The notes under the pieces are model-generated. The model was not told where the DNA came from and did no database searches. It saw nothing but the letters and a program-made list of their open reading frames with translations. Position numbers and translations under genes: made by a program. Shown piece after piece: positions 6,177-37,276 of a DNA stretch of 53,253 nucleotides (position 1 is its first letter; each line of letters opens with the position of its first letter). The stretch lies in assembly GCA_003223455.1 (NCBI GenBank), contig QHVE01000065.1:42228-95480 (forward strand), given 5' to 3'. This DNA is from Gemmatimonadota bacterium (GTDB lineage Bacteria > Gemmatimonadota > Gemmatimonadetes > Gemmatimonadales > Gemmatimonadaceae).

Positions 6177-8870
<2,694 letters not shown>

Positions 8871-11900: not shown

Positions 11901-12872
11901 TGGAAGAAGCGTCGCATCATGCTGTACCTGCACGGCGGCCTGAACGACGAAGCCAGCGTGGCGCGCCGAGTGGTGGCGTTCCGCGACGTGCTGCTGGCGA
12001 ACGAGATCTATCCGCTGCACGTGATGTGGGAGACGGGCGGCATGGAGTCGATCAAGAGCATGCTGGAGGATCTCGTCGCGCCGCAGGACGCGCGGTCCGG
12101 TGCAGTGGCGGATTGGCTCGCGCGGCTGCGCGACGGGCTGCTCGAGGCGCGCGATCGCACGATCGAGCTGACGACGGCGAAGCTCGGCGGCGCGATGTGG
12201 GGGGAGATGAAGGAGAACGCGGCGCTCGCGTCGGGACGTCCGAACCACGATGGGGCGATGCAGCTGCTCGCCAAACACGTCCAGAGCGCGCTCGCGGACG
12301 CGGACACGAACGCGTGGGAGCTGCACGTCGTCGCGCACAGTGCGGGGAGCATCTTCGCGGCGCATCTGCTTCCGCTGCTGCTCTCGGCGAAGATCCGGCT
12401 GGCATCGGTGCAGTTCATGGCGCCGGCGATTCGCGTCGACGAGTTCAAGTCGCTCGTCTACCCGCACATCACGGCGCGCCGCTGCCCAGCGCCGACTCTC
12501 TACATCCTGAGCGACGTCGGCGAGCGGGACGACACGGTCGGCCCGTACGGCAAATCGCTGCTCTATCTGGTGAGCAACGCGTTCGAGGGACGACGGGAGA
12601 CGCCGCTGCTCGGGATGCAGCGATACATCAGCCAGACCGCGAAGGAGGAGGCACGCATCGCCGACGCCGACATCGAGGTGTTGTTCGCGGGCAACACCGG
12701 CGGACTGCCACGACTGGTGATCGCCGGCGCCGGCTCGAACAAGGCCAGCACGAGCCGGAGCCAGAGCCATGGTGGGTTCGACAACGACAAGGACACGCTG
12801 AACTCCATTCTGCGGCGCATCCTCGGTGACGCGCCGCAGCGCGAGTTCGACGTGCGGGATCTTCAGTACTGA
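11901..12872 (+). CDS. Alpha/beta-hydrolase-like domain, probably the second half of the peptidase gene
   Basis: The frame begins within GWKKRRIMLYLHGGLND (first ATG at 11919) and codes about 320 residues. LYLHGG resembles the oxyanion-hole strand of alpha/beta hydrolases, and VVAHSAGS holds the GxSxG-type nucleophile elbow (here AHSAG). Later segments (LYILSDVGERDD, NAFEGRRETPLLGMQ) fit a serine hydrolase lid and core, but the catalytic acid and base cannot be fixed by eye. It has no ribosome site of its own at 11919, and coding evidence extends upstream of that ATG. This supports a fused peptidase-hydrolase interrupted by a frameshift, though overlapping separate genes remain possible. Confidence 0.75.
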   Translation, partial: WKKRRIMLYLHGGLNDEASVARRVVAFRDVLLANEIYPLHVMWETGGMESIKSMLEDLVAPQDARSGAVADWLARLRDGLLEARDRTIELTTAKLGGAMWGEMKENAALASGRPNHDGAMQLLAKHVQSALADADTNAWELHVVAHSAGSIFAAHLLPLLLSAKIRLASVQFMAPAIRVDEFKSLVYPHITARRCPAPTLYILSDVGERDDTVGPYGKSLLYLVSNAFEGRRETPLLGMQRYISQTAKEEARIADADIEVLFAGNTGGLPRLVIAGAGSNKASTSRSQSHGGFDNDKDTLNSILRRILGDAPQREFDVRDLQY

Positions 12873-12963
12873 GACGTGCCCGCGTGCCGTGGAACGCGTC
12901 GCAGGATTCCGAGAGGTTAACTTGCGCTGCCCGCCAGCCTCTCGTCCCCGACGACTGCCGACC

Positions 12964-14785
12964 ATGCCGGACATGCTTCACCGCGGCCGTTCGCGCCGTC
13001 CCGCCATCTGGACCGCTCTCGTCCTCTCGATGGTGGGCTGTGAGCGAGCACAGAAACCGGAGGCACCACCGATCGATCTTGGTTTCCAGGAGAGAGCCCA
13101 GGGCGCCGGCATCGCCTTTCGGATGAACAATCTCTCGCGAGAACAGGGCGCCGAGCGGTTCCGCATCAATCTGTACGACCACGGCTCGGGCCTCGCGGTG
13201 GGAGACGTCGACAACGACGGTCGCGACGACATCTACTTCCTCACACAGCACGGAACGAACGCGCTCTATCGCAATGCGGGCGGCGGATCGTTCGTCGACG
13301 TCACCACGAAAGCCGGCGTCGCCGTCGGCGACCGCGTCTCGGTCGGCGCCACCTTCGCCGACTACGACAACGACGGTTTCGCCGATCTCTTCGTCTCCAG
13401 CACGCGAGGCGGCAACATCCTGTTTCACAATCGGGGAGACGGCACCTTCGAGGACGTGACCGCGGCCGCCGGTGTGGCTCACGTCGGCCACTCGCAGACA
13501 CCGGTGTTCTTCGACTACGACAACGACGGTGACCTCGATCTCTTTCTCACCAACACCGCGCACTGGACCACCGACAAGTTCGACATCACCAGCGGGACCT
13601 ACGAGGGAAAGGCCAGTCTTCCCGACCTGATGACCAGTCCCACGGAGTCGAACATCCTCTATCGCAACAACGGCGACCGGACCTTCACCGATGTCACCGC
13701 TGCCGCAGGGTTGCGGGGCCGAGGATGGGCCGGCGATGTCGCGGTGTTCGATTACGACGAGGATGGCTTCATGGATCTGTTCGTGCCGAGCATGTTCGGC
13801 CGAGGGCAGCTATACCGGAACAGCGGTCATGGCACGTTCACCGACGTCACGGCCGAGACACTGGGCAAGACCTCGCACGGCGCGATCGGCACGAAGGTGT
13901 TCGACTACGACGGCGACGGCCGGCTCGATCTCTTCGTGGTGGACATGCACTCCGACATGTGGATGGGACTCGACGATCAGGCGACGTCGCGCGAGGCCGC
14001 CAAGGAGTACGAACATCGGCGGTTTCTCAGCTCCGCGGGTCCGACCGTGGACGAGAGCGCTCCCGGCTTCGTCGAGAGCCAGCGGGCGGAGTTCGCGAAG
14101 CATGGGGAGCGCTACGACGCGCTGCTGTTCGGGAACGCGCTCTATCGCAATCTCGGTGGGGGAAAGTTCCAGGAGTCCGCCGTGAGCGCCGGACTGGAGA
14201 CCTTCTGGCCGTGGGGGATCGCGACCGGCGACTTCGACGACGACGGCGACGAGGACGTGTTCATCACATCGGGGATGGGCTATCCGTTCTACTACTGGCC
14301 GAACCAGCTGATGATGAACAACGGCGATGGCACCTTTCGCAATCGGGCGGGCGATCTCGGTGTCGAGCCTCCGACGGGTGGCGTGTATCAGGAGCAGACG
14401 ATCGCGGGGCGACAGGCAGCCCGGAGCTCGCGGAGCGCGGCCGTGGGCGATTTCGACGGCGACGGCCGGCTCGAGATCGTGACCAACAACTTCAACGACC
14501 GCCCCTATTTCTTCGCCAACCGGTTGCCCAGGCGCAACTACGTCGCGCTCCGTCTCACCGGATCCCAGAGCAATCGGGATGCGATCGGCGCGCTGGCGAG
14601 GCTCTGGAGCGGCAACACGGTCATGGTGCGGCAGGTCAACCCGGCGGGCGGCTATCTCGCGCAGTCGAGCAGGGTTCTGCACTTCGGGCTGGGCGACCGG
14701 AGCAAAGTCGACAGCATCCAGATCCGATGCGGTGAAGAACCCGGGGATCAATACCCTGCACCAGATTCGAGAGCCGGCCCACTGA
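12964..14785 (+). CDS. CRTAC1-like FG-GAP/VCBS lipoprotein with ASPIC/UnbV tail, frameshifted at its 3' end
   Basis: The start is taken at ATG 12964, which opens a lipoprotein signal (WTALVLSMVGC); the open frame itself extends further upstream without features. The body is an integrin-type propeller of FG-GAP repeats with calcium loops such as DVDNDGRDD, DYDNDGDLD, DYDGDGRLD and DFDGDGRLE. An ASPIC/UnbV-like domain follows (GAIARL-type, VLHFGLGD, VDSIQIR). After IR the nominal frame reads CGEEPGDQYP and runs into the transporter. Shifting one frame restores a family-like ending, VKNPGINTLHQIREPAH, with a stop at 14783-14785. A small deletion near 14730 therefore fused two genes. It should be an envelope-attached, Ca-binding surface protein. 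Confidence 0.85.
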
Positions 14786-14799
14786 GCCCGACCATTTCG

Positions 14800-16077
14800 G
14801 TGACCTCCGTCGAGCGGTCGTCGCGCTACGCCTGGATCGTCGTCGCGCTCCTGCTGCCGGTAGCGCTGCTCAACTACCTCGACCGGCAGATGCTCGCCAC
14901 GATGAAGGCGTCGATGGTGAGCGACATCCCGACGATCGCCAACAAGGCGGACTGGGGGCTGATCCTTGGCTCGTTCAAGTGGAGCTATGCGCTGCTCGGG
15001 CCGATCGCCGGCTACATCGCCGATCGGTTCAGCCGGCGCTGGGTGATCGGGGCGAGCCTGTTCGTGTGGTCGGTGGTGACGTGGTGGACGGGGCAGTGCA
15101 CGACATTCAACGAGCTGCTGACGGCGCGCGCGTTCATGGGCGTCAGCGAGGCGTTCTATTTCCCGGCAGCGCTGGCGCTGATCACCGAGTATCACCTCGG
15201 GCCGACGCGCTCACGCGCGGTCGGGGTGCACCAGACGGGCATCTATCTCGGTCAGATCATCGGCGGGTTCGCCGGATACGCAGCGGACGCGCCGGCGCTC
15301 GGGTGGCGGTGGGCGTTCTCGACGAGTGGGATCGTCGGCATCGTCTACGCGATCCCGCTCGCCGCGCTGCTGCGGGAACCTGTTCGCACTCGGGCCGACG
15401 ATGGCGCACCGCACACGCCGACGGGCGTCGTGCGCGGACTGCTCGGCAACCGCAACTTCATCCTCCTCATGATGTGCTTCACGCTGCCCGCCATCGCGGG
15501 GTGGATCGTGCGCGACTGGATGCCGGAGATCCTGCGCGAACGGTTCAGCCTCAGCCAGGGCAGGGCCGGCGTGAGCGCGATCCTGTTCGTGCAGATCGCG
15601 TCGCTCGTCGGCGCCCTCGTCGGCGGGACGATCGCGGATCGCTGGGTACGGCGTACCCCACGCGGCAGGATCTTCACGAGCGCGATCGGGATGGTGCTGT
15701 TCCTGCCGGCGCTGTTCAGCGTGGGGAACGCGAGCAATCTCGGCATCGCGATCGTCGGGCTCACCGTCTTCGGACTGGGCTGGGGCTTCTTCGACAGCAA
15801 CAACATGCCGATCCTCAGCCAGATCGCGCGGCCGGAATGGCGCGCGACGGGCTACGGCATCATGAACCTGGTGAGCATCAGCTGCGGCGGCTTCGGCGAC
15901 TGGATGTTCGGGGCGTTGCGGGATCGGAACGTTCCGTTGAATCTGATCTTCGGGATGTTCGCGAGCTTCGCGCTGCTCTCGGTGATGCTCATCGTGATGA
16001 TCCGTCCACGCGGCGACGATGCCGTTGCGGCGGCTTCGCGCGCACGCCGACAAGCCGGTATGTTGGACCCCCAATGA
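14800..16077 (+). CDS. Major facilitator superfamily transporter (ACS-like)
   Basis: About 425 residues with twelve predicted membrane helices. The early motif NYLDRQMLATM and the loop GPIAGYIADRFSRRW (MFS motif A type) place it near the anion:cation symporter branch, which carries organic anions such as sugar acids. The substrate is not readable. The start is set at the in-frame GTG 14800, because the first helix (AWIVVALLLPVALLNYLDR) follows at once. The open frame extends upstream only because of the indel in the preceding gene. Its stop overlaps the start of the M20 peptidase (ATGA at 16074), indicating translational coupling of an importer with a secreted peptidase. Confidence 0.9.
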   Translation: MTSVERSSRYAWIVVALLLPVALLNYLDRQMLATMKASMVSDIPTIANKADWGLILGSFKWSYALLGPIAGYIADRFSRRWVIGASLFVWSVVTWWTGQCTTFNELLTARAFMGVSEAFYFPAALALITEYHLGPTRSRAVGVHQTGIYLGQIIGGFAGYAADAPALGWRWAFSTSGIVGIVYAIPLAALLREPVRTRADDGAPHTPTGVVRGLLGNRNFILLMMCFTLPAIAGWIVRDWMPEILRERFSLSQGRAGVSAILFVQIASLVGALVGGTIADRWVRRTPRGRIFTSAIGMVLFLPALFSVGNASNLGIAIVGLTVFGLGWGFFDSNNMPILSQIARPEWRATGYGIMNLVSISCGGFGDWMFGALRDRNVPLNLIFGMFASFALLSVMLIVMIRPRGDDAVAAASRARRQAGMLDPQ

Positions 16078-28440: not shown

Positions 28441-28611
28441 ATCGTTGCGCACGACCGCCACTGCTGAGCTGGCGTCGTTTTCCAGTGAGCACTATCGTCG
28501 CGTCCCTCGGATGTCGCCCGACGCGGGACGTCACCGGGCTCAAAGCCGCCCACGCAGGGCTGGCGGCATCGTGCCCCGATTGGTGGGCCGAGACGATCCA
28601 GAGGTAACACC

Positions 28612-31233
28612 GTGGCAACCCCTCCCCAAACCCCGACGACCGCGTTCACGCGCGACGTCGTGGGCCGGTACGTCTGCAATGGACTGGACGAAGCGCTGGC
28701 CAGCACCACCGGTGATGCGGACGCGCGCCCGTTCGACTACATCGTGATCGGCGGCGGCTCGTTCGGCACCGTGCTCGCGGCGCGGCTCGCGCGGCGCGAC
28801 GTCACCGGAGCGCATCGCATCCTCGTGCTCGATGCGGGCGCGTACGTCTACCCCGAGCACGTGCAGAACCTTCCGCCCGGCCTGGACTCCGGCGAGGTGT
28901 GGGGAGTGCCGTGGAGCTCGGACAGCCCGCGGTCGTGGAACCAGCGCTTTCCCGGGCTCGCCTACTGTCTCGGTGGGCGCTCGGTGTTCTGGGGCGGCTG
29001 GTCCCCGTACTTCATCGACAGCGAGCTGCCGGCGGCGCAGTGGCCGGCGAGCGTCGTGCACGATCTGACCCAGCCGGTCGTGCCGACGGGCGGACAACTG
29101 AAGTCGTATCTCGATCACGCCGCCGACCAGATCGGCACGGCGGAGACGAACGACTTCGTGCAGGGGCCGCTGCACGAGCTTCTCCGCCAGCGCCTGTTCA
29201 GCGCGCTCCAGGGGCGGCCAGCCGCGGGACAGCTCATGCTCACCGGGAATCGCGGCACGCTCACGTCAGCGGCCGATCTCGAGGCGCCGCTCGCGGTGCA
29301 GTCGTCGTCGCCACGGCCGGGGTTCTTTCCGCTCAACAAGTTCAACGCCGTGCAGCTCCTCGTGCGCGCGGCGCGCCTGTCGCGCAGCGAAGCGGAGCAG
29401 AGCGCGCGCGGCGACGAGGCGGCGATCAACCGGCGGCGCCGGTTCATGGTGGTGCCGAACGTCCACGTCATCCGTCTCGAGCGCAACGTGGATGGCGATG
29501 GGCGGCGCATCGTGCGGATCATCACGAACCAGGGCATCGTCGACGTGCCGGCGAATGGGCAGGTGTTCCTCGCCGCCGGAACGGTGGAGAGCACGCGGCT
29601 GGCGCTGCTGTCGCTGCCGAATTCGAACGGAATGATCGGGCGAAACCTGATGGCGCATCTCCGCTCCAACCTCACGATCCGCATCCCTCGCAAGTCGCTC
29701 GAGGCGATCGACCCGAATCTGCCGAAGGAGCTCTCCGTCTCGGCGATGTTCGTGAAGGGCGTGTTCCAGCATGCCGACGGCAGTCCCGGACACTTCCACA
29801 TCCAGATCACCGCCTCGGGGGTGGGCAAGCTCGAGACGGGCTCGGAAGCGGAGCTGTTCAAGAAGATCCCGAACATCGACGAGCTGGATCGGTTCCGCGA
29901 TCTGACGGACCAGTACGTGGTCATCACGCTGCGCGGCATCGGCGAGATGACCGGCGACAAGAGCTCGTCCGATCCGCAGAACCGCATCGCGCTCGACTGG
30001 CTCGGCACGCAGGGGCCATTCGACTACGGGGCGCCGCGCGCGCTGGTGCGACTCGAGGCCGGACCGAAGGACGCGTCGGATCCGCGAGGCGATCGTGACC
30101 TCGACCTGTGGAACGCGATGGACGCGGCGTCGGACGAGGTGGCGCTGATGCTCGCGAGCGGGCAGCCGTCCGACCTCCAGTATCTGCGCACCGCGGGCAC
30201 GCCCGGCGTGTCGTGGTGGGATCCGACGGCGCCACCAGCGAGTGAGCGGCGCGACACGTTGGGCTCCACGCATCATGAAGGTGGCACGCTGTGGATGGGC
30301 GATGATTCGGCGACGTCGGTGACGGACGCGTGGGGACAGTTCCACGAATCCGACAACTTGTTCGCCGTCGGACCGGCAACGTTGCCGACGATGGGCTCGC
30401 CCAACCCGATGCTCTCCGGCGTCGCGCTGGCGCGGCGCACGGCGGATCACGTGCTGCCGGCGCCGGTGGCGCCGGTGCCGGAGCCAGGCTTCCGCACGCT
30501 GTTCGACGGCACACTCGGCACCTTCCAGCAGTGGCGCATCGCCGGACCGGGCGCGTTCGCGCTCCTCGATGGCGCGATGGTCGCCCAGCCCGCCGGCGAT
30601 CATACCGTGTTGTACTACGCGCCCGAGGCGTTCTCCAACTTCGATCTGCGGCTCGAGTTCCGCGTCAACGGCGTCGGTGACAACTCGGGGGTGTTCGTGC
30701 GCTTCCGCAGTCCGCTCCCGGCGTGGCCCGACATCGACGATCCGCGCGTGCTGACCAATCGCGCCTGGGTGGCGGTGCGCACCGGCTTCGAGGTGCAGAT
30801 CGACGATCAGGCGCGACCGGACGGTCTCGACCGAACTCGCACGGGTGCCATCTACGACATCCCGACGGGACAGAACGGGGAGCCGCCGCTCCAGGAGTTC
30901 CGGCGCGCCCCCGATCTCGTGCCCGGCGCGTGGAACACGCTCGAGGTTTCGGTGCACGGCGACACCTACACCGTGCGCATCAATGGTGTACGCACGACGG
31001 AGTTCGTGAACCTCGACGAGGCGCGGGGGCAATCGTCGGCGGAGAATCCGGCGTCCGGCTACCTCGGAGTACAGGCGCATTCCGGGCGCGTCGCGTTCCG
31101 CAACATCCGGGTGAAGCCATTGCCCGCGACGGCCGTCGTCAACACACCGGCTGTGGCGCTCCCCGCGATTGCCGACGCCACGAGTGGTGTACCGTCGACG
31201 GAGCCGCCGCCGCGCCGGCGGATTCCGAAATGA
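28612..31233 (+). CDS. GMC-type FAD oxidoreductase fused to a 3-keto-disaccharide hydrolase (DUF1080) domain
   Basis: An 873-residue two-domain protein starting at GTG 28612 after GAGG. Residues about 42-620 form a GMC-type flavoenzyme: FAD fold DYIVIGGGSFGTVLAARLA, then GGRSVFWGGWSPYF, AAGTVESTRLAL, and C-terminal STHHEGGTLWMG and SPNPMLSGVALARRTADH. Residues about 627-836 form a concanavalin-like DUF1080 domain (FRTLFDGTLGTFQQWR, FDLRLEFRVNGVGDNSGVFVR, FEVQIDDQ, WNTLEVSVHGD). DUF1080 proteins are known as 3-keto-disaccharide hydrolases, which cleave glycosides after oxidation at C3. The fusion would oxidise and then cleave a sugar. No signal peptide is visible. A Pro-rich tail ends the protein. 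Confidence 0.88.
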   Translation: MATPPQTPTTAFTRDVVGRYVCNGLDEALASTTGDADARPFDYIVIGGGSFGTVLAARLARRDVTGAHRILVLDAGAYVYPEHVQNLPPGLDSGEVWGVPWSSDSPRSWNQRFPGLAYCLGGRSVFWGGWSPYFIDSELPAAQWPASVVHDLTQPVVPTGGQLKSYLDHAADQIGTAETNDFVQGPLHELLRQRLFSALQGRPAAGQLMLTGNRGTLTSAADLEAPLAVQSSSPRPGFFPLNKFNAVQLLVRAARLSRSEAEQSARGDEAAINRRRRFMVVPNVHVIRLERNVDGDGRRIVRIITNQGIVDVPANGQVFLAAGTVESTRLALLSLPNSNGMIGRNLMAHLRSNLTIRIPRKSLEAIDPNLPKELSVSAMFVKGVFQHADGSPGHFHIQITASGVGKLETGSEAELFKKIPNIDELDRFRDLTDQYVVITLRGIGEMTGDKSSSDPQNRIALDWLGTQGPFDYGAPRALVRLEAGPKDASDPRGDRDLDLWNAMDAASDEVALMLASGQPSDLQYLRTAGTPGVSWWDPTAPPASERRDTLGSTHHEGGTLWMGDDSATSVTDAWGQFHESDNLFAVGPATLPTMGSPNPMLSGVALARRTADHVLPAPVAPVPEPGFRTLFDGTLGTFQQWRIAGPGAFALLDGAMVAQPAGDHTVLYYAPEAFSNFDLRLEFRVNGVGDNSGVFVRFRSPLPAWPDIDDPRVLTNRAWVAVRTGFEVQIDDQARPDGLDRTRTGAIYDIPTGQNGEPPLQEFRRAPDLVPGAWNTLEVSVHGDTYTVRINGVRTTEFVNLDEARGQSSAENPASGYLGVQAHSGRVAFRNIRVKPLPATAVVNTPAVALPAIADATSGVPSTEPPPRRRIPK

Positions 31234-31284
31234 TCGGCGCATCCGCCGTTCGCGGTGACCGGGGGTAGTCGGGGTCAGGCAATC

Positions 31285-31327
31285 GGGGTCAGACTCCCCC
31301 GGTGTCACACCGAAGGAGTCTGACCCC
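31285..31327. repeat. Long palindrome GGGGTCAGACTCC / GGAGTCTGACCCC
   Basis: Perfect 13-base arms flank a smaller inner repeat (GGTGT..ACACC), and more copies of GGGGTCAG and GGAGTCCGACCCC lie on either side (31271-31350). It sits 52 bases after the GMC stop, so it may terminate that transcript, but the multiplied motif and the related copy at 156-229 suggest a dispersed palindromic element. Confidence 0.6.
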
Positions 31328-31443
31328 CATGAGCTCACCGAAGGAGTCCGACCCCGGTGAGTTCAAACGGTGGCGTCGAGCGGGCTGTCCAAGACACGAT
31401 CACGGCATTGCTCGACCGCCCACCTCCACGGTCCCGACTCTTC

Positions 31444-32370
31444 ATGCGCCAGCTGGTTTGCTCGACCCTTCTCTCCCTGCTCGTCGTGTCGACGCTTTCT
31501 GCCCAGACCCGCACCGTCGCCGAGCGGCTCGGCCATCCGCGGAACGCCAAGCTCCTCATCCTCCACGCCGACGACATCGGCGTGGCGCACTCGGAGAATG
31601 CCGCGAGCTTCGACGCGCTCGACAAGGGCGCCGTCAACTCGGGGAGCATCATGATGCCGACGCCCTGGGTGACGGAGGTGGCCGAGTACGCGAAGCGGCA
31701 CCCTGACGCCGACCTCGGCGTGCACCTCACGCTCAACAGCGAATGGAACACCTACCGCTGGGGCGGGCTCGCGTCGCGCGACGAGACCACGTCGCTGCAC
31801 GATCCGGACGGGACTTTCCCGCGCGATCCCGGAAGCGTTGCGAAGCGGGCCAAGCAGGACGAGGTGGAGCGCGAGCTGCGGGCGCAGATCGACCGCGCGT
31901 ACGCGATCGGGATCAAGCCGACGCACGTCGACAGCCACATGGGGACGCTGTACGCGACGCCGGAACTGTTCCGCACCTACGTGAAGGTCGCCCGCTCGTA
32001 CAAGCTGCCCTTCCTGCACTTCATCGGAGGAGCCGAGCAGGCGAACGTCGCGCAGCTCCTGCCGAGCGACATCGTCGTCGACGCCTCGATCATGGCGTAC
32101 CAGAAAGGGACGCTCGAGCAATGGAGGAAGTTCTACCTCGACGCGATCCGCAACCTCAAGCCCGGGCTCACGGTGATCGGCGTGCACCTCGGCTACGACG
32201 ATGCCGAGCTTCGCGCAGTGACCACCGGATGGGACTCGTGGGGCGCGGACTGGCGCCAGCGTGACTACGACGTGCTCACCAGCGCGGAGTTCAAGCAGGC
32301 GCTCAAGGACAACGGCGTGGTGCTCGTGACGTGGCGCGACGTTCAGAAGGCGATGTATCCGACGCCGTGA
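31444..32370 (+). CDS. YdjC/ChbG-like carbohydrate deacetylase, secreted
   Basis: A protein of about 308 residues. The start is taken at ATG 31444, which opens a signal peptide (RQLVCSTLLSLLVVSTLSA); the open frame is longer only because it runs through the palindromic repeat. The YdjC fold is shown by the metal-binding strand LLILHADDIGVAHS, DLGVHLTLNSEW, and HVDSHMGT, with a closing VIGVHLGYDD segment. Family members remove acetyl groups from chito-oligosaccharides or similar sugars. Placed between the GMC-hydrolase fusion and the sulfatase, it fits a glycan-trimming set. It would be periplasmic. Confidence 0.88.
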   Translation: MRQLVCSTLLSLLVVSTLSAQTRTVAERLGHPRNAKLLILHADDIGVAHSENAASFDALDKGAVNSGSIMMPTPWVTEVAEYAKRHPDADLGVHLTLNSEWNTYRWGGLASRDETTSLHDPDGTFPRDPGSVAKRAKQDEVERELRAQIDRAYAIGIKPTHVDSHMGTLYATPELFRTYVKVARSYKLPFLHFIGGAEQANVAQLLPSDIVVDASIMAYQKGTLEQWRKFYLDAIRNLKPGLTVIGVHLGYDDAELRAVTTGWDSWGADWRQRDYDVLTSAEFKQALKDNGVVLVTWRDVQKAMYPTP

Positions 32371-32634
32371 GCGATCTGCACCCCGGCGCGGATCGGCGCA
32401 CGATGCGCGCGCCTCGAGCGTGAATCGTGCCGCGACCACTCGTCGCGGACGGAGGAGGCAAACGATTTCGCTCGCGGTCACATGCGGGTTCCCAAAGTCC
32501 AATCTCGGGTCGGCTGATCAGGCGTCAGCTTCGCTCACTTCGATGAAGTGCGCCTCGCTTCACGCAGCTCTCGCTGTTCGTTTCGCGTTCGAGCGTGCGC
32601 GAGCAACCATCACGCGACCAACGAGGGATCACCG

Positions 32635-35049
32635 ATGTCAAACCCGCATGACGCTCGCACGGTGCTGCCGATTCCCGACATGCCGAACACCGGCCTGATC
32701 ACCTACGATGCGAAGGATCCGGAAACCAGCTTTCCTCCCATCCCGCAACTGCGGCCACCGAAGGGCGCGCCGAACATCCTCATCGTGCTCATCGACGACG
32801 CCGGCTTCGGCGCGGCGAGCGCGTTCGGCGGTCCCTGCCGGACGCCGAATGCCGAAGCGCTGGCGGCGGGCGGTCTGAAGTACAACCGCTTTCACACCAC
32901 GGCGCTCTGCTCGCCGACCCGCCAGGCCCTGCTGACCGGACGCAACCACCACTCGGCGGGGATGGGTGGCATCACCGAGATCGCCAGCGGCGCGCCGGGC
33001 TATTCGTCGGTCCTCCCCAACACGATCTCGCCGATCGCGAGGACGTTGAAGCTCAACGGCTACTCCACGGCGCAGTTCGGGAAGTGCCACGAGGTCCCGG
33101 TGTGGCAGACCAGCCCTGCCGGTCCGTTCGATGCCTGGCCGACGGGCGGCGGCGGCTTCGAGTACTTCTACGGCTTCATCGGCGGTGAGGCACATCAGTG
33201 GTATCCGTCGCTGTACGAGGGAACCACGCCGATCGAGGTGAAGAAGACGCCGGAGGAAGGCTATCACCTCGTGCCCGACATGACCGACAAGGCCATCGGC
33301 TGGATCGGCCAGCAGAAGGCGCTCATGCCCGACAAGCCGTTCTTCGTCTACTTCGCGCCGGGTGCGACGCACGCGCCGCACCACGTGCCCAAGGAGTGGG
33401 CCGACAAGTACAAGGGCCGATTCGACACCGGATGGGACGCGCTGCGGGAGGAGACGTTCGACCGCCAGAAGAAGCTCGGCGTGATCCCGCCCGACGCCGA
33501 GCTCACGGCGCGGCACAAGGAGATTCCGGCGTGGAACGACATGCCCGAGGCGCTCAAGCCGGTGCTTCGCCGCGAGATGGAGGTCTACGCCGGCTTCCTC
33601 GAGTACGTGGACCATCACGTCGGGCGCATCTTCGATTCCCTGAAGAAGCTGCACGTGATGGACGATACGCTCGTGTACTACATCGTCGGCGACAACGGCG
33701 CGTCGGCCGAGGGGACGCTGAACGGCACGTTCAACGAGATGATCAACTTCAATGGCGCCTCCGCGCTCGAGACGCCCGAGTTCCTGATGGAGCGGATCGA
33801 CAAGCTCGGTGGCCCCGAGTCGTACAACCACTACGCGGTCGGCTGGGCGCACGCGATGAACACGCCGTACCAGTGGACCAAGCAGGTCGCCTCGCACTGG
33901 GGTGGGACGCGCAACGGCACGATCGTGCACTGGCCGACGGGGATCGAGGGGAAGGGCGAGCTCCGCTCGCAGTTCCATCACGTCATCGACGTCGCACCGA
34001 CGCTGCTCGAGGCGGCGGGCCTGCCCGAGCCGCAGTTCGTGAACGGGGTACAGCAGCGCCCGATCGAAGGCGTGAGCATGCTCTACAGCTTCAACGATGC
34101 CAAGGCACCCGAGCGACGAGAGACCCAGTACTTCGAGATGTTCGGCAACCGAGGCATCTATCACGACGGCTGGACCGCAGTGACCCGGCACAAGACGCCC
34201 TGGCTGCTCGTCGGTGAGAAGGTTCCCCCGTTCGACGACGACGTCTGGGAGCTGTACGACACGAGCAAGGACTGGAGCCAGGCGCACGACCTGTCGAAGC
34301 AGATGTCCGACAAGCTGCACGAGCTGCAGCGTCTGTGGCTCATCGAGGCGACGCGCTACAACGTGCTGCCGCTCGATGATCGCGTGGCCGAGCGCATGAA
34401 TCCCGACACCGCGGGCCGGCCGGTGCTGATTCGAGGCACGACCCAGATCCTCTTCGGCGACATGGGGCGGCTCTCGGAGAACTCGATGGTCAGCATCAAG
34501 AACAAGTCGCACGCCGTGACCGCGGAGATCGTGGTGCCGGAGTCGGGGGCGAAAGGGGTGATCATCGCGCAGGGCGGCAACATCGGTGGGTGGAGCCTCT
34601 ACGCCAAGGACGGGAGACTGAAATACTGCTACAACTTCCTCGGCATCACCTACACGTACGTGGAGGCGAGGAACGCGCTGCCGGCGGGCAAGAACCAGGT
34701 GCGCATGGAGTTCGCCTACGAAGGCAAAGGTCTGGGGAAGGGGGGGATCGTGTCGCTGTTCGTCGACGGGAAGGAGGTCGGCAACGGCAAGGTCGCCGCG
34801 ACGGCGTCGATGGTCTTCTCGGCCGACGACGGCTGCGACGTCGGCAAGGACACCGGCTCGCCCGTGTCCGAGGACTACGGGCCGCGTGACAACGAGTTCT
34901 CGGGGACCATCGAAGGAGTGGCGCTCGAGATCGCCGACGCGGCCGAAAGCGACGATCATCTCGTCTATCGTGCGCGTGGCCATGGCGCGGCAGTAGAACG
35001 GCACGCCGATCACCCTGTCGGCAGGGGTGGCGGCGCTCGGGACAGGTGA
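32635..35049 (+). CDS. Arylsulfatase-type sulfatase
   Basis: About 804 residues in the open frame from ATG 32635. The formylglycine motif is CSPTR (Cys about residue 92, TTALCSPTRQALLTGR), with metal site IVLIDDAGFG before it and GDNGAS and HHVIDVAPTLLEAAGL after it, as in the large arylsulfatases. A C-terminal beta-sandwich follows (SVSIKNKSHAV-like, AKGVIIAQGGNIGGWSLY). No signal peptide is seen, so export is doubtful. The last residues look frameshifted: shifting frame near 34965 gives VAMARQ and a stop at about 34997, an ending usual in this group. The extended stop lies inside the terminator stem. Confidence 0.93.
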   Translation: MSNPHDARTVLPIPDMPNTGLITYDAKDPETSFPPIPQLRPPKGAPNILIVLIDDAGFGAASAFGGPCRTPNAEALAAGGLKYNRFHTTALCSPTRQALLTGRNHHSAGMGGITEIASGAPGYSSVLPNTISPIARTLKLNGYSTAQFGKCHEVPVWQTSPAGPFDAWPTGGGGFEYFYGFIGGEAHQWYPSLYEGTTPIEVKKTPEEGYHLVPDMTDKAIGWIGQQKALMPDKPFFVYFAPGATHAPHHVPKEWADKYKGRFDTGWDALREETFDRQKKLGVIPPDAELTARHKEIPAWNDMPEALKPVLRREMEVYAGFLEYVDHHVGRIFDSLKKLHVMDDTLVYYIVGDNGASAEGTLNGTFNEMINFNGASALETPEFLMERIDKLGGPESYNHYAVGWAHAMNTPYQWTKQVASHWGGTRNGTIVHWPTGIEGKGELRSQFHHVIDVAPTLLEAAGLPEPQFVNGVQQRPIEGVSMLYSFNDAKAPERRETQYFEMFGNRGIYHDGWTAVTRHKTPWLLVGEKVPPFDDDVWELYDTSKDWSQAHDLSKQMSDKLHELQRLWLIEATRYNVLPLDDRVAERMNPDTAGRPVLIRGTTQILFGDMGRLSENSMVSIKNKSHAVTAEIVVPESGAKGVIIAQGGNIGGWSLYAKDGRLKYCYNFLGITYTYVEARNALPAGKNQVRMEFAYEGKGLGKGGIVSLFVDGKEVGNGKVAATASMVFSADDGCDVGKDTGSPVSEDYGPRDNEFSGTIEGVALEIADAAESDDHLVYRARGHGAAVERHADHPVGRGGGARDR

Positions 35050-35083
35050 ACGGGACATCGGAGGAAGCCTCCGATGTCCCGTT
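35049..35083 (+). terminator. Hairpin terminator after the sulfatase
   Basis: A perfect 16-base-pair stem AACGGGACATCGGAGG / CCTCCGATGTCCCGTT with a three-base loop begins in the last bases of the sulfatase frame and is followed by a short T-rich step (CCGTCTTG). The overlap with the nominal stop supports an earlier true stop for the gene. Confidence 0.8.
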
Positions 35084-35224
35084 CCGTCTTGTCACGGCTA
35101 TTGTCCAACCGGACCTGGCGCGGGACACCGACTCCGGTATCCCTTTCCCGCTCTCGCTCCTGCCCGCATCCAACACGCGCATCACCTCGGCCTTCGGCTC
35201 CGGCTCCCCCACCCCTCGCGCTCC

Positions 35225-37276
35225 ATGAACTGCCTCGAATCACGAATCCACGCGCTGACCACGGCGCTCGTCCTCATGCTCGCTCCGATCGCGCTCTCCG
35301 CGCAGGCGCCACTCACCGTGGCGTCTCCCGACGGCAGGACGCAGGTGACGATCGCGCTCGACGGCGGCGCGCTGCGCTACGCCGTGCGGCACGCCGGCGC
35401 CAACGTCGTCACGCCATCGCGGCTCGGCTTCGTGTTCAGGGGCGCCGCGCCGCTCGGCGACAGCGTGCGCATCACGGACAGCCGCCGCGCGACCTACGAC
35501 TCCACGTGGACGCAGCCGTGGGGCGAGGTGCGCAGGGTGCGCGATCACCACGACGAGCTGCAGGTCGACGTCGTGGAGACGAAGGCGGCCGGGCGACGGT
35601 TCACCGTGACGTTCCGCGTGTTCGACGATGGCGTCGGCTTCCGGTACGAGCTGCCCGACCAGCCCGCGCTCACGAACTACGAGATCTCCGACGAGCTCAC
35701 CGAGTTCGCACTGGCCGACAACGCGAGCGCGTGGTGGATCGCGTCGAACCGGCCGCGGCTCGACCGCTCGGAGCAGCTCTACTCGGAAGGGCCGGTGAGC
35801 ACGCTCGACAGCGTGCAGACGCCGCTCACGATGAAGATGTCGAACGGGACGTACGTCGTGATCCACGAGGCGAACCTCGTCGACTATCCGCGGATGTTCC
35901 TCGCCGGCCCGCGCATGGAGAGCCGTACGCTGCGCGCCGCGCTCGCGCCGTGGGTGGACGGCGTGAAGGTGCGTGGGCGCACGCCGCTCGTCACGCCCTG
36001 GCGCACACTGCAAATCGCCGATCGCATCGAGGATCTCCAGCCGCAGGTGCTCACGCTCAACCTCAATCCGCCGAGCCGGCTGACGGATGTCAGCTGGATC
36101 GCACCGCAGAAGTACGTCGGCATCTGGTGGGGGATGCACCTCAACACGATGACCTGGTCGTCGGGACCGAAGCACGGTGCCACCACGGCGAACACGCGGA
36201 AGTACATCGACTTCGCCGCGGCGAACGGCTTCAAGGGAGTACTGGTCGAGGGGTGGAACGTCGGCTGGGACGGCGACTGGATCCAGAACAAGAACGCGTT
36301 CACGTTCACCAAGGCGTATCCCGACTACGATCTGCCTGGTCTCGCCGCGTACGCGAAGTCGAAGGGGGTCGGGCTCATCGCGCACAACGAGACGTCGGGG
36401 GGCATCGAGAACTACGAGCGTCAGCTCGAGGACGCGTACAAGCTCTACCAGTCGCTCGGCATCCACGCGATCAAGACGGGCTACGTGGCCGACACGGTGG
36501 GCGGCGGGCAGTCGCACTATGGGCAGTACGCGGTGCGGCACCATCGCAAGGTGATCGAGACCGCGGCGCGCTACGGCATCATGGTCGATGCGCACGAGCC
36601 GATCCACGATACGGGCGAGCGCCGCACCTGGCCGAACATGATGTCGCGCGAAGGCGCGCGCGGGCAGGAGTACAACGCGTGGGGCGCCGAGGGGGGCAAT
36701 CCGCCCGAGCACGAGTCGATCCTCTTCTTCACGCGGCTGCTCGCCGGCCCGATGGATTTCACGCCGGGGATCTTCGACCTGTTGATGAAGAGCGCGGGGC
36801 AGGGTCCGCGGCCGCCCGAGCAGGCGAGGCCGCGCACGACGCTGGCGAAGCAGCTCGCGCTCTACGTCGTGCTCTACTCGCCACTGCAGATGGCGGCGGA
36901 TCTTCCGGAGAACTACGCCGGCCAGCCCGCATTCCAATTCATCCGCGATGTCGCCGTGGACTGGGACACGACGCGGGTGCTCCAGGGCGCGATCGGCGAC
37001 TACGTGCTCGTCGCGCGGCGCCAGCGCGGCGCATCGACGTGGTTCGTCGGCGCGATCACGGACGAGGCCGGACGCACGTTCACGGTGCCGCTCGATTTCC
37101 TCACGCCCGGCAAGCGGTACGAGGCGGAGATCTACGCCGACGGGCCGGGGGCGAACTGGCGTTCGAATCCGCTCCCGGTGTCGATCTCGCGGCGGCCGGT
37201 GACGTCGGCGACGCGGCTCACCGTCGTGCTCGCGCCGGGAGGGGGACAGGCAATTCGAATTCGGCAGCTGCCATAG
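35225..37276 (+). CDS. Glycoside hydrolase family 97 (alpha-glucosidase type)
   Basis: A protein of about 683 residues, with the start at ATG 35225 opening a signal peptide (TTALVLMLAPIALSA). The order is N-terminal beta-sandwich, central catalytic barrel and C-terminal small beta domain, as in SusB-type GH97 enzymes. Candidate catalytic glutamates are in AHNETSGG, MVDAHEP and SREGARGQEY, which is the inverting pattern; the retaining members use an Asp instead. GH97 releases glucose or galactose from alpha-glycosides in the periplasm. The C-terminus PVTSATRLTVVLAPGGGQAI has a relic copy at 50979. It is followed 30 bases later by a small secreted protein. No SusC/SusD genes lie nearby. Confidence 0.93.
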   Translation: MNCLESRIHALTTALVLMLAPIALSAQAPLTVASPDGRTQVTIALDGGALRYAVRHAGANVVTPSRLGFVFRGAAPLGDSVRITDSRRATYDSTWTQPWGEVRRVRDHHDELQVDVVETKAAGRRFTVTFRVFDDGVGFRYELPDQPALTNYEISDELTEFALADNASAWWIASNRPRLDRSEQLYSEGPVSTLDSVQTPLTMKMSNGTYVVIHEANLVDYPRMFLAGPRMESRTLRAALAPWVDGVKVRGRTPLVTPWRTLQIADRIEDLQPQVLTLNLNPPSRLTDVSWIAPQKYVGIWWGMHLNTMTWSSGPKHGATTANTRKYIDFAAANGFKGVLVEGWNVGWDGDWIQNKNAFTFTKAYPDYDLPGLAAYAKSKGVGLIAHNETSGGIENYERQLEDAYKLYQSLGIHAIKTGYVADTVGGGQSHYGQYAVRHHRKVIETAARYGIMVDAHEPIHDTGERRTWPNMMSREGARGQEYNAWGAEGGNPPEHESILFFTRLLAGPMDFTPGIFDLLMKSAGQGPRPPEQARPRTTLAKQLALYVVLYSPLQMAADLPENYAGQPAFQFIRDVAVDWDTTRVLQGAIGDYVLVARRQRGASTWFVGAITDEAGRTFTVPLDFLTPGKRYEAEIYADGPGANWRSNPLPVSISRRPVTSATRLTVVLAPGGGQAIRIRQLP

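Follow-up and report, generated by a model that had tools for sequence, protein, structure and literature searches.

A GMC oxidoreductase joined to a DUF1080 domain in Gemmatimonadota: a candidate one-chain enzyme for non-hydrolytic glycoside breakage

In Caulobacter crescentus, the lactose 3-dehydrogenase LacABC consists of separate proteins that are proposed to be periplasmic; its GMC component needs LacB and LacC, and the DUF1080 protein CCNA_01705 is a further separate protein (PMC9007349). This confirms the statement in the original prediction that the known oxidative glycoside route usually uses separate proteins. The order of events, in which a GMC enzyme oxidises the sugar and a DUF1080 protein then acts on its 3-keto product, is like the one we propose for a single gene of a Gemmatimonadota bacterium (assembly GCA_003223455.1), located in a stretch of 53,253 nucleotides called the window here. 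Unlike LacABC, the window protein has neither a PF13618 subunit nor a signal peptide: no PF13618 gene adjoins it, the immediate neighbours encoding an M32 peptidase and a YdjC-like protein. The glycoside 3-oxidases PsG3Ox and CarA (PDB 8qve; PMC10646112) are GMC flavoenzymes that act on the C3 of glycosides and share a His/Asn pair with the window protein, but they are about 500 amino acids long without a lyase domain, and the likeness lies mainly in C-terminal motifs (E 1.4e-9). AtOGE and PuCGE (PMC10628242) follow the reaction logic proposed here, the elimination of the aglycone from a 3-keto-glycoside, but they are Mn2+ TIM-barrel enzymes with a fold unrelated to DUF1080 and are not fused to an oxidase. 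BT2157 of Bacteroides thetaiotaomicron (PDB 3osd, 8tda, 8rr2, 9fbe) has the same Pfam family (PF06439) and fold as the DUF1080 half of the window protein, and both keep the Glu of ExQ and the His of QxH; in contrast, BT2157 stands alone, is annotated as secreted, belongs to another DUF1080 clade and has HxD and SKF motifs that the window protein does not have. A fused GMC-DUF1080 enzyme is unreported in the literature searched, which included few subscription papers, and no paper that brings pyranose oxidase and DUF1080 together was found there either. Both halves are of known kinds, a separate-protein pathway is known (PMC9007349), and the fused form is new within that literature.

The frame begins with a GTG start codon and runs without an internal stop. 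The PF06439 profile matched residues 626-835 with an E value of 3.5e-37 (128.7 bits against a gathering cut-off of 26.8) and PF05199 (GMC_oxred_C) matched residues 500-607 with an E value of 7.7e-13 (49.6 bits, cut-off 24.6). With an FAD motif in the same frame, these matches bear out the prediction that a GMC flavoenzyme is joined to a DUF1080 domain. The parts of the gene are as follows.

28612..31233, + strand: fusion gene, GMC oxidoreductase plus DUF1080, 873 aa (frame read directly and aligned over its full length to orthologs)
28600..28604, + strand: AGAGG, likely ribosome-binding site (read directly, 7 nt 5' of the GTG)
28726..30456, + strand: GMC flavoprotein half, about residues 39-615 (FAD motif and PF05199)
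30457..30486, + strand: short Pro-rich linker between the GMC and DUF1080 halves (ortholog alignment)
30487..31116, + strand: PF06439/DUF1080 domain, residues 626-835, a ConA-like jelly roll (profile match, domain model and fold matches)
31123..31230, + strand: C-terminal tail, residues 838-873, missing in the orthologs (ortholog alignment)

A search for the same architecture elsewhere, which had been put forward as a check, found it: the joined chain is kept in nine other intact fusions. We compared these nine, from three Streptomyces, Geodermatophilus, a Chloroflexia, an Acidobacteriota, a second genome of the same phylum (G006), Rhizobium and Nostoc. Two adjacent genes run together through misassembly or the loss of a stop codon would give a similar frame, and a comparable junction is present elsewhere in the same genome, on contig C19. 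The junction with its short linker recurs in all nine, which excludes the misreading of two genes as one, and we regard such an artefact as extremely improbable. The C19 contig has a separate-gene locus with two GMC genes and a BT2157-type DUF1080. On the same contig (L079, 4503-8015, minus strand), the reading frame of a LacA-type GMC gene continues into a xylose-isomerase-like TIM barrel with a Tat signal (PF01261), which is the fold of the other 3-keto-glycoside eliminases. This looks like a frameshift or a deletion and not a working fusion, because the GMC part is cut short at the junction. Elsewhere in the window, at 12826-16077, an open frame of 1083 residues joins FG-GAP/UnbV repeats to a full MFS transporter, and is either a rare pairing or the outcome of a stop codon lost between two genes.

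The window protein has no signal peptide, as read from its start site and the ortholog alignment: the stretch from the upstream in-frame stop to 28612 is without any start codon, and the ortholog N-termini begin at the same place. The lack of an export signal had been foreseen and was regarded as odd. The absence itself stands; the oddness does not, since it is common to the whole fusion family and points to a putatively cytosolic enzyme, without anomaly.

The full-length relatives were recovered by scanning 84,980 genomes with a sequence pattern. Six genomes or MAGs from three other phyla carry fusions at 54-63% identity: three Streptomyces species (S. cupreus, S. luteolifulvus and S. scabichelini), Geodermatophilus africanus, and one MAG each of Chloroflexia and Acidobacteriota. 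Of 298 genomes sampled within the same phylum, G006 was the only other carrier, at 45-51% identity, and three congeneric genomes do not have the fusion. In plasmid records, full fusions were found in Rhizobium leguminosarum (38% identity) and Nostoc (28%). The same records show a decayed fusion for Azospirillum and, for Cupriavidus, Clavibacter and Bradyrhizobium, GMC relatives that stand alone. The genome scan also found that the Microvirga copy is broken. Viral contigs, when scanned, gave no relative. The remnants of the fusion gene in Microvirga lie in L020 (Microvirga massiliensis, 7001-7948) and L048 (about 7995-8585), and suggest repeated gain and loss. The GMC half is 62-69% identical in the main orthologs and 48-53% in Rhizobium and G006. 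The window GMC half resembles its Streptomyces counterparts (68%) more than that of G006 (53%), and horizontal transfer of the gene is therefore likely, to judge from these identities. Divergence has been faster in the DUF1080 half, where domain identities are 29-59%, than in the GMC half. In the DUF1080 tree the domains from fusions form one group with moderate support (86/82), and this would be consistent with a single old joining event behind all of them.

The FAD-binding and catalytic motifs of the GMC half could be placed directly.

28735..28767, + strand: FAD-binding DYIVIGGGSFG (PF13450, DAO and NCBIfam matches, residues 42-78)
30274..30276, + strand: His555, GMC catalytic His in THHE.GTLWMG, invariant, counterpart by motif of PsG3Ox H440
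30403..30405, + strand: Asn598, GMC catalytic Asn in GSPNP, invariant, counterpart by motif of PsG3Ox N484

The GxGxxG motif lies at residues 45-52, with GGGSFG at 47-52. His555 and Asn598 are invariant in the fusions and in the stand-alone relatives, the surrounding THHE-GTLWMG...GSPNP motif is conserved, and H440 and N484 were proven by mutation to be the catalytic pair of PsG3Ox (PMC10646112). The middle region is divergent, and the GMC N-terminal model PF00732 is not among the matches listed for the window protein. The profile matches place this half about equally far from HMF oxidase, glucose dehydrogenase, pyranose oxidase and fructose dehydrogenase, with aminoglycoside oxidase as a further equally weak match. 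It reaches no NCBIfam equivalog, and its score for pyranose_ox is 23 bits against a cut-off of 544.9, outside AA3_4. Judged by these profiles, the GMC half is a separate branch within no characterised subfamily.

The reaction we propose for this half is oxidation of a glycoside, most likely at C3. The same spread of equally weak profiles, from HMF oxidase to aminoglycoside oxidase and with no equivalog, would also fit an enzyme that oxidises a sugar at C1, C2 or C6, or even a non-sugar alcohol, the DUF1080 domain then acting on that product or binding it. We consider this improbable, given that C3-selective GMC enzymes exist (PMC10646112) and that the family of the partner domain is defined structurally by 3-keto sugar chemistry.

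The two DUF1080 residues on which the argument turns are the following.

30790..30792, + strand: Glu727 in GFEVQID, the near-universal DUF1080 acid (alignment)
31078..31080, + strand: His823 in VQAHSG, equivalent of BT2157 His275 (alignment to the 8rr2 and 9fbe chains)

The Glu of ExQ, E727 in the window protein, was almost universal over 69 aligned DUF1080 domains. None of the nine intact orthologs lacks Glu727, Asp731 or Trp774, and all nine have Arg or Lys at position 743; Gln729 and His823 are each kept in eight of the nine, Geodermatophilus having Tyr at the latter. The sequence search showed that Asn replaces His in the QDHG of the 9fbe chain as compared with 8rr2, and this His is residue 275 when counted from the aligned structure ranges. 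The Asn agrees with the H275N variant of BT2157, which is deficient in hydration and still used for elimination (PMC13273386); by this precedent, losing the His would affect hydration more than elimination. In the titles of 8rr2 and 9fbe the protein is a 3-keto-glycoside eliminase/hydratase, and the bound ligands are alpha-3-keto-glucose and 2-hydroxy-3-keto-glucal. Of the earlier description as a 3-keto hydrolase domain the family is therefore upheld, and the hydrolase label gives way to eliminase/hydratase. The loss of catalytic residues had been named as a finding that would count against the idea, and here the outcome is mixed: Glu727 and, in most orthologs, His823 are kept, whereas the BT2157-type HxD and SKF motifs are missing from the window domain in the alignment of 69 domains (RPD replaces HPD). 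The tree also separates the window clade from that of BT2157.

An AlphaFold model of the full-length protein built from seven sequences was too poor for use (pLDDT 35.5), and a model of the DUF1080 domain alone had a pLDDT of 69.6 and a pTM of 0.74. The best structural match of the latter was the DUF1080 structure 3hbk (Z 17.2; 184 residues at 3.3 A), with 9fbe at Z 16.6 (177 residues at 3.5 A) and lectin domains not far behind at Z 14-15. A galectin-type or legume-lectin origin, raised by these fold matches, was rejected, the PF06439 E value deciding for DUF1080.

The closeness of ConA and lectin folds (ERGIC-53 at Z 15.4 against the best of 17.2), the missing BT2157-type motifs and the less than strict conservation of His823 would all suit a DUF1080 module that has no catalytic role and, like a lectin, brings the GMC oxidase to a glycan or glycoconjugate or keeps it there, the oxidase alone being active and its product being an oxidised sugar together with H2O2 or a reduced acceptor. 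Such a role would be less useful in a protein that looks cytosolic, and Glu727, Trp774, Arg/Lys743 and usually His823 have been kept at domain identities as low as 29-59%. The tree neighbours of the fusions are a stand-alone clade (GWNHYGPGYF type) and actinobacterial ThuA-DUF1080-lectin/CBM proteins. Two of the ThuA proteins (L047, 2583-5939; L051, 7266-8927), which represent a further type of DUF1080 fusion, end in a ricin-type lectin or a CBM6. A separate true CBM or ricin-type lectin alongside DUF1080 argues that DUF1080 is probably not the binding module in these relatives. A possible consumer of GMC-made H2O2 is the DyP-type peroxidase family gene found on the Nostoc plasmid (L041, 8198-9874), 37 bp upstream of the fusion. 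We judge the binding-module reading unlikely on balance, if a serious competitor. A general partnership with peroxidases was rejected as unsupported, DyP being found in 1 of 100 sampled genomes of the phylum. We prefer the catalytic reading, at a probability just under one half, because the family looks cytosolic and the DUF1080 relatives bear extra CBMs.

One stand-alone DUF1080 gene from the clade next to the fusions (G119, L080) adjoins a GMC gene with its PF13618 subunit, two Gfo/Idh genes and a nucleoside/sugar-type symporter. This make-up is that of a glycoside utilisation locus. As a lone case it speaks for a 3-keto role in the wider DUF1080 group, short of proof for the fusions themselves.

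An M32 carboxypeptidase gene lies upstream of the fusion gene, and the following features lie downstream.

31285..31327, no strand: REP-like inverted repeat GGGGTCAGACTCC/GGAGTCTGACCCC in the gap between the fusion and the YdjC gene (copy counts in the genome)
31357..32370, + strand: YdjC-like deacetylase (PF04794, E 1.1e-54)
32548..35049, + strand: sulfatase (PF00884, E 1e-64)
35027..37276, + strand: GH97 glycosidase (PF10566, E 5e-105)

The deacetylase, sulfatase and GH97 had been taken as support for glycan use. All three are present, but as support they are weak, because none is conserved beside the orthologs and because a REP-like hairpin lies between the fusion and the deacetylase. In the neighbourhoods examined, the M32 peptidase, YdjC, sulfatase and GH97 genes recur beside no fused ortholog, and an all-against-all comparison found no widely common neighbour. 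The only shared neighbours each occur in two: a GH13 gene is common to Rhizobium and Nostoc, an M4 peptidase gene to Nostoc and Azospirillum. Beside the window gene, neither a 3-keto-sugar reductase nor a sugar transporter was found. The window context supports carbohydrate work loosely. GH13 alpha-amylase-like genes lie near the fusion in two phyla, on plasmids of Nostoc (L041, 15916-17811) and of Rhizobium leguminosarum (L042, 8403-10310), where the GH13 frame and the 3' end of the fusion gene overlap. The REP-like 13-mer has 55 exact copies in the genome against none for a reversed control. The repeat GGAGTCTGACCCC is seen at 31273-31355 of the window and at 39195-39394 of contig C40; copies are often clustered, in opposite orientations around short gaps, and it may belong to a RAYT-type element.

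We propose, at close to even probability, that the fusion is a cytoplasmic one-chain enzyme with two active sites for non-hydrolytic glycoside breakage, by C3 oxidation and then elimination and hydration. It is favoured because the one-chain architecture is found in several phyla with an invariant GMC His/Asn pair and most of the key DUF1080 residues kept, because the DUF1080 model best fits DUF1080 structures including the eliminase/hydratases 9fbe and 8rr2, and because separate GMC (LacA) and DUF1080 proteins cooperate genetically in Caulobacter (PMC9007349). It is weakened by a DUF1080 clade that differs from that of BT2157 and is without HxD and SKF, by the Tyr of Geodermatophilus, by the faster divergence of this half, by a GMC subfamily that is uncharacterised, and by the absence of an adjoining pathway gene or a widely common neighbourhood. 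In the GMC half, FAD would accept a hydride from one carbon of the glycoside ring, with C3 the most likely, by way of His555 and Asn598, and would hand the electrons to O2 or another acceptor. The 3-keto-glycoside would then be channelled to the tethered DUF1080 domain, which, if catalytic in the manner of BT2157 and perhaps with a metal, would eliminate the aglycone to give a 2-hydroxy-3-keto-glycal and, with His823, add water to release a free 3-keto-sugar. Reducing that sugar would be the job of a separate enzyme.

More tentatively, and with the balance against it, the fusion may represent a widespread and unrecognised cytosolic single chain that carries out oxidation, eliminative cleavage and hydration, three of the four non-hydrolytic steps, with the reactive 3-keto intermediate passed between tethered sites; the electrons would leave to an external acceptor and so would not serve the last, reductive step. 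The non-hydrolytic glycoside route has been defined with separate proteins, and a natural fusion would join its oxidation and cleavage steps. If this is true, a GMC subfamily and a DUF1080 clade, both so far unassigned, would be tied to that route, and the enzyme would be a one-pot deglycosylation catalyst.
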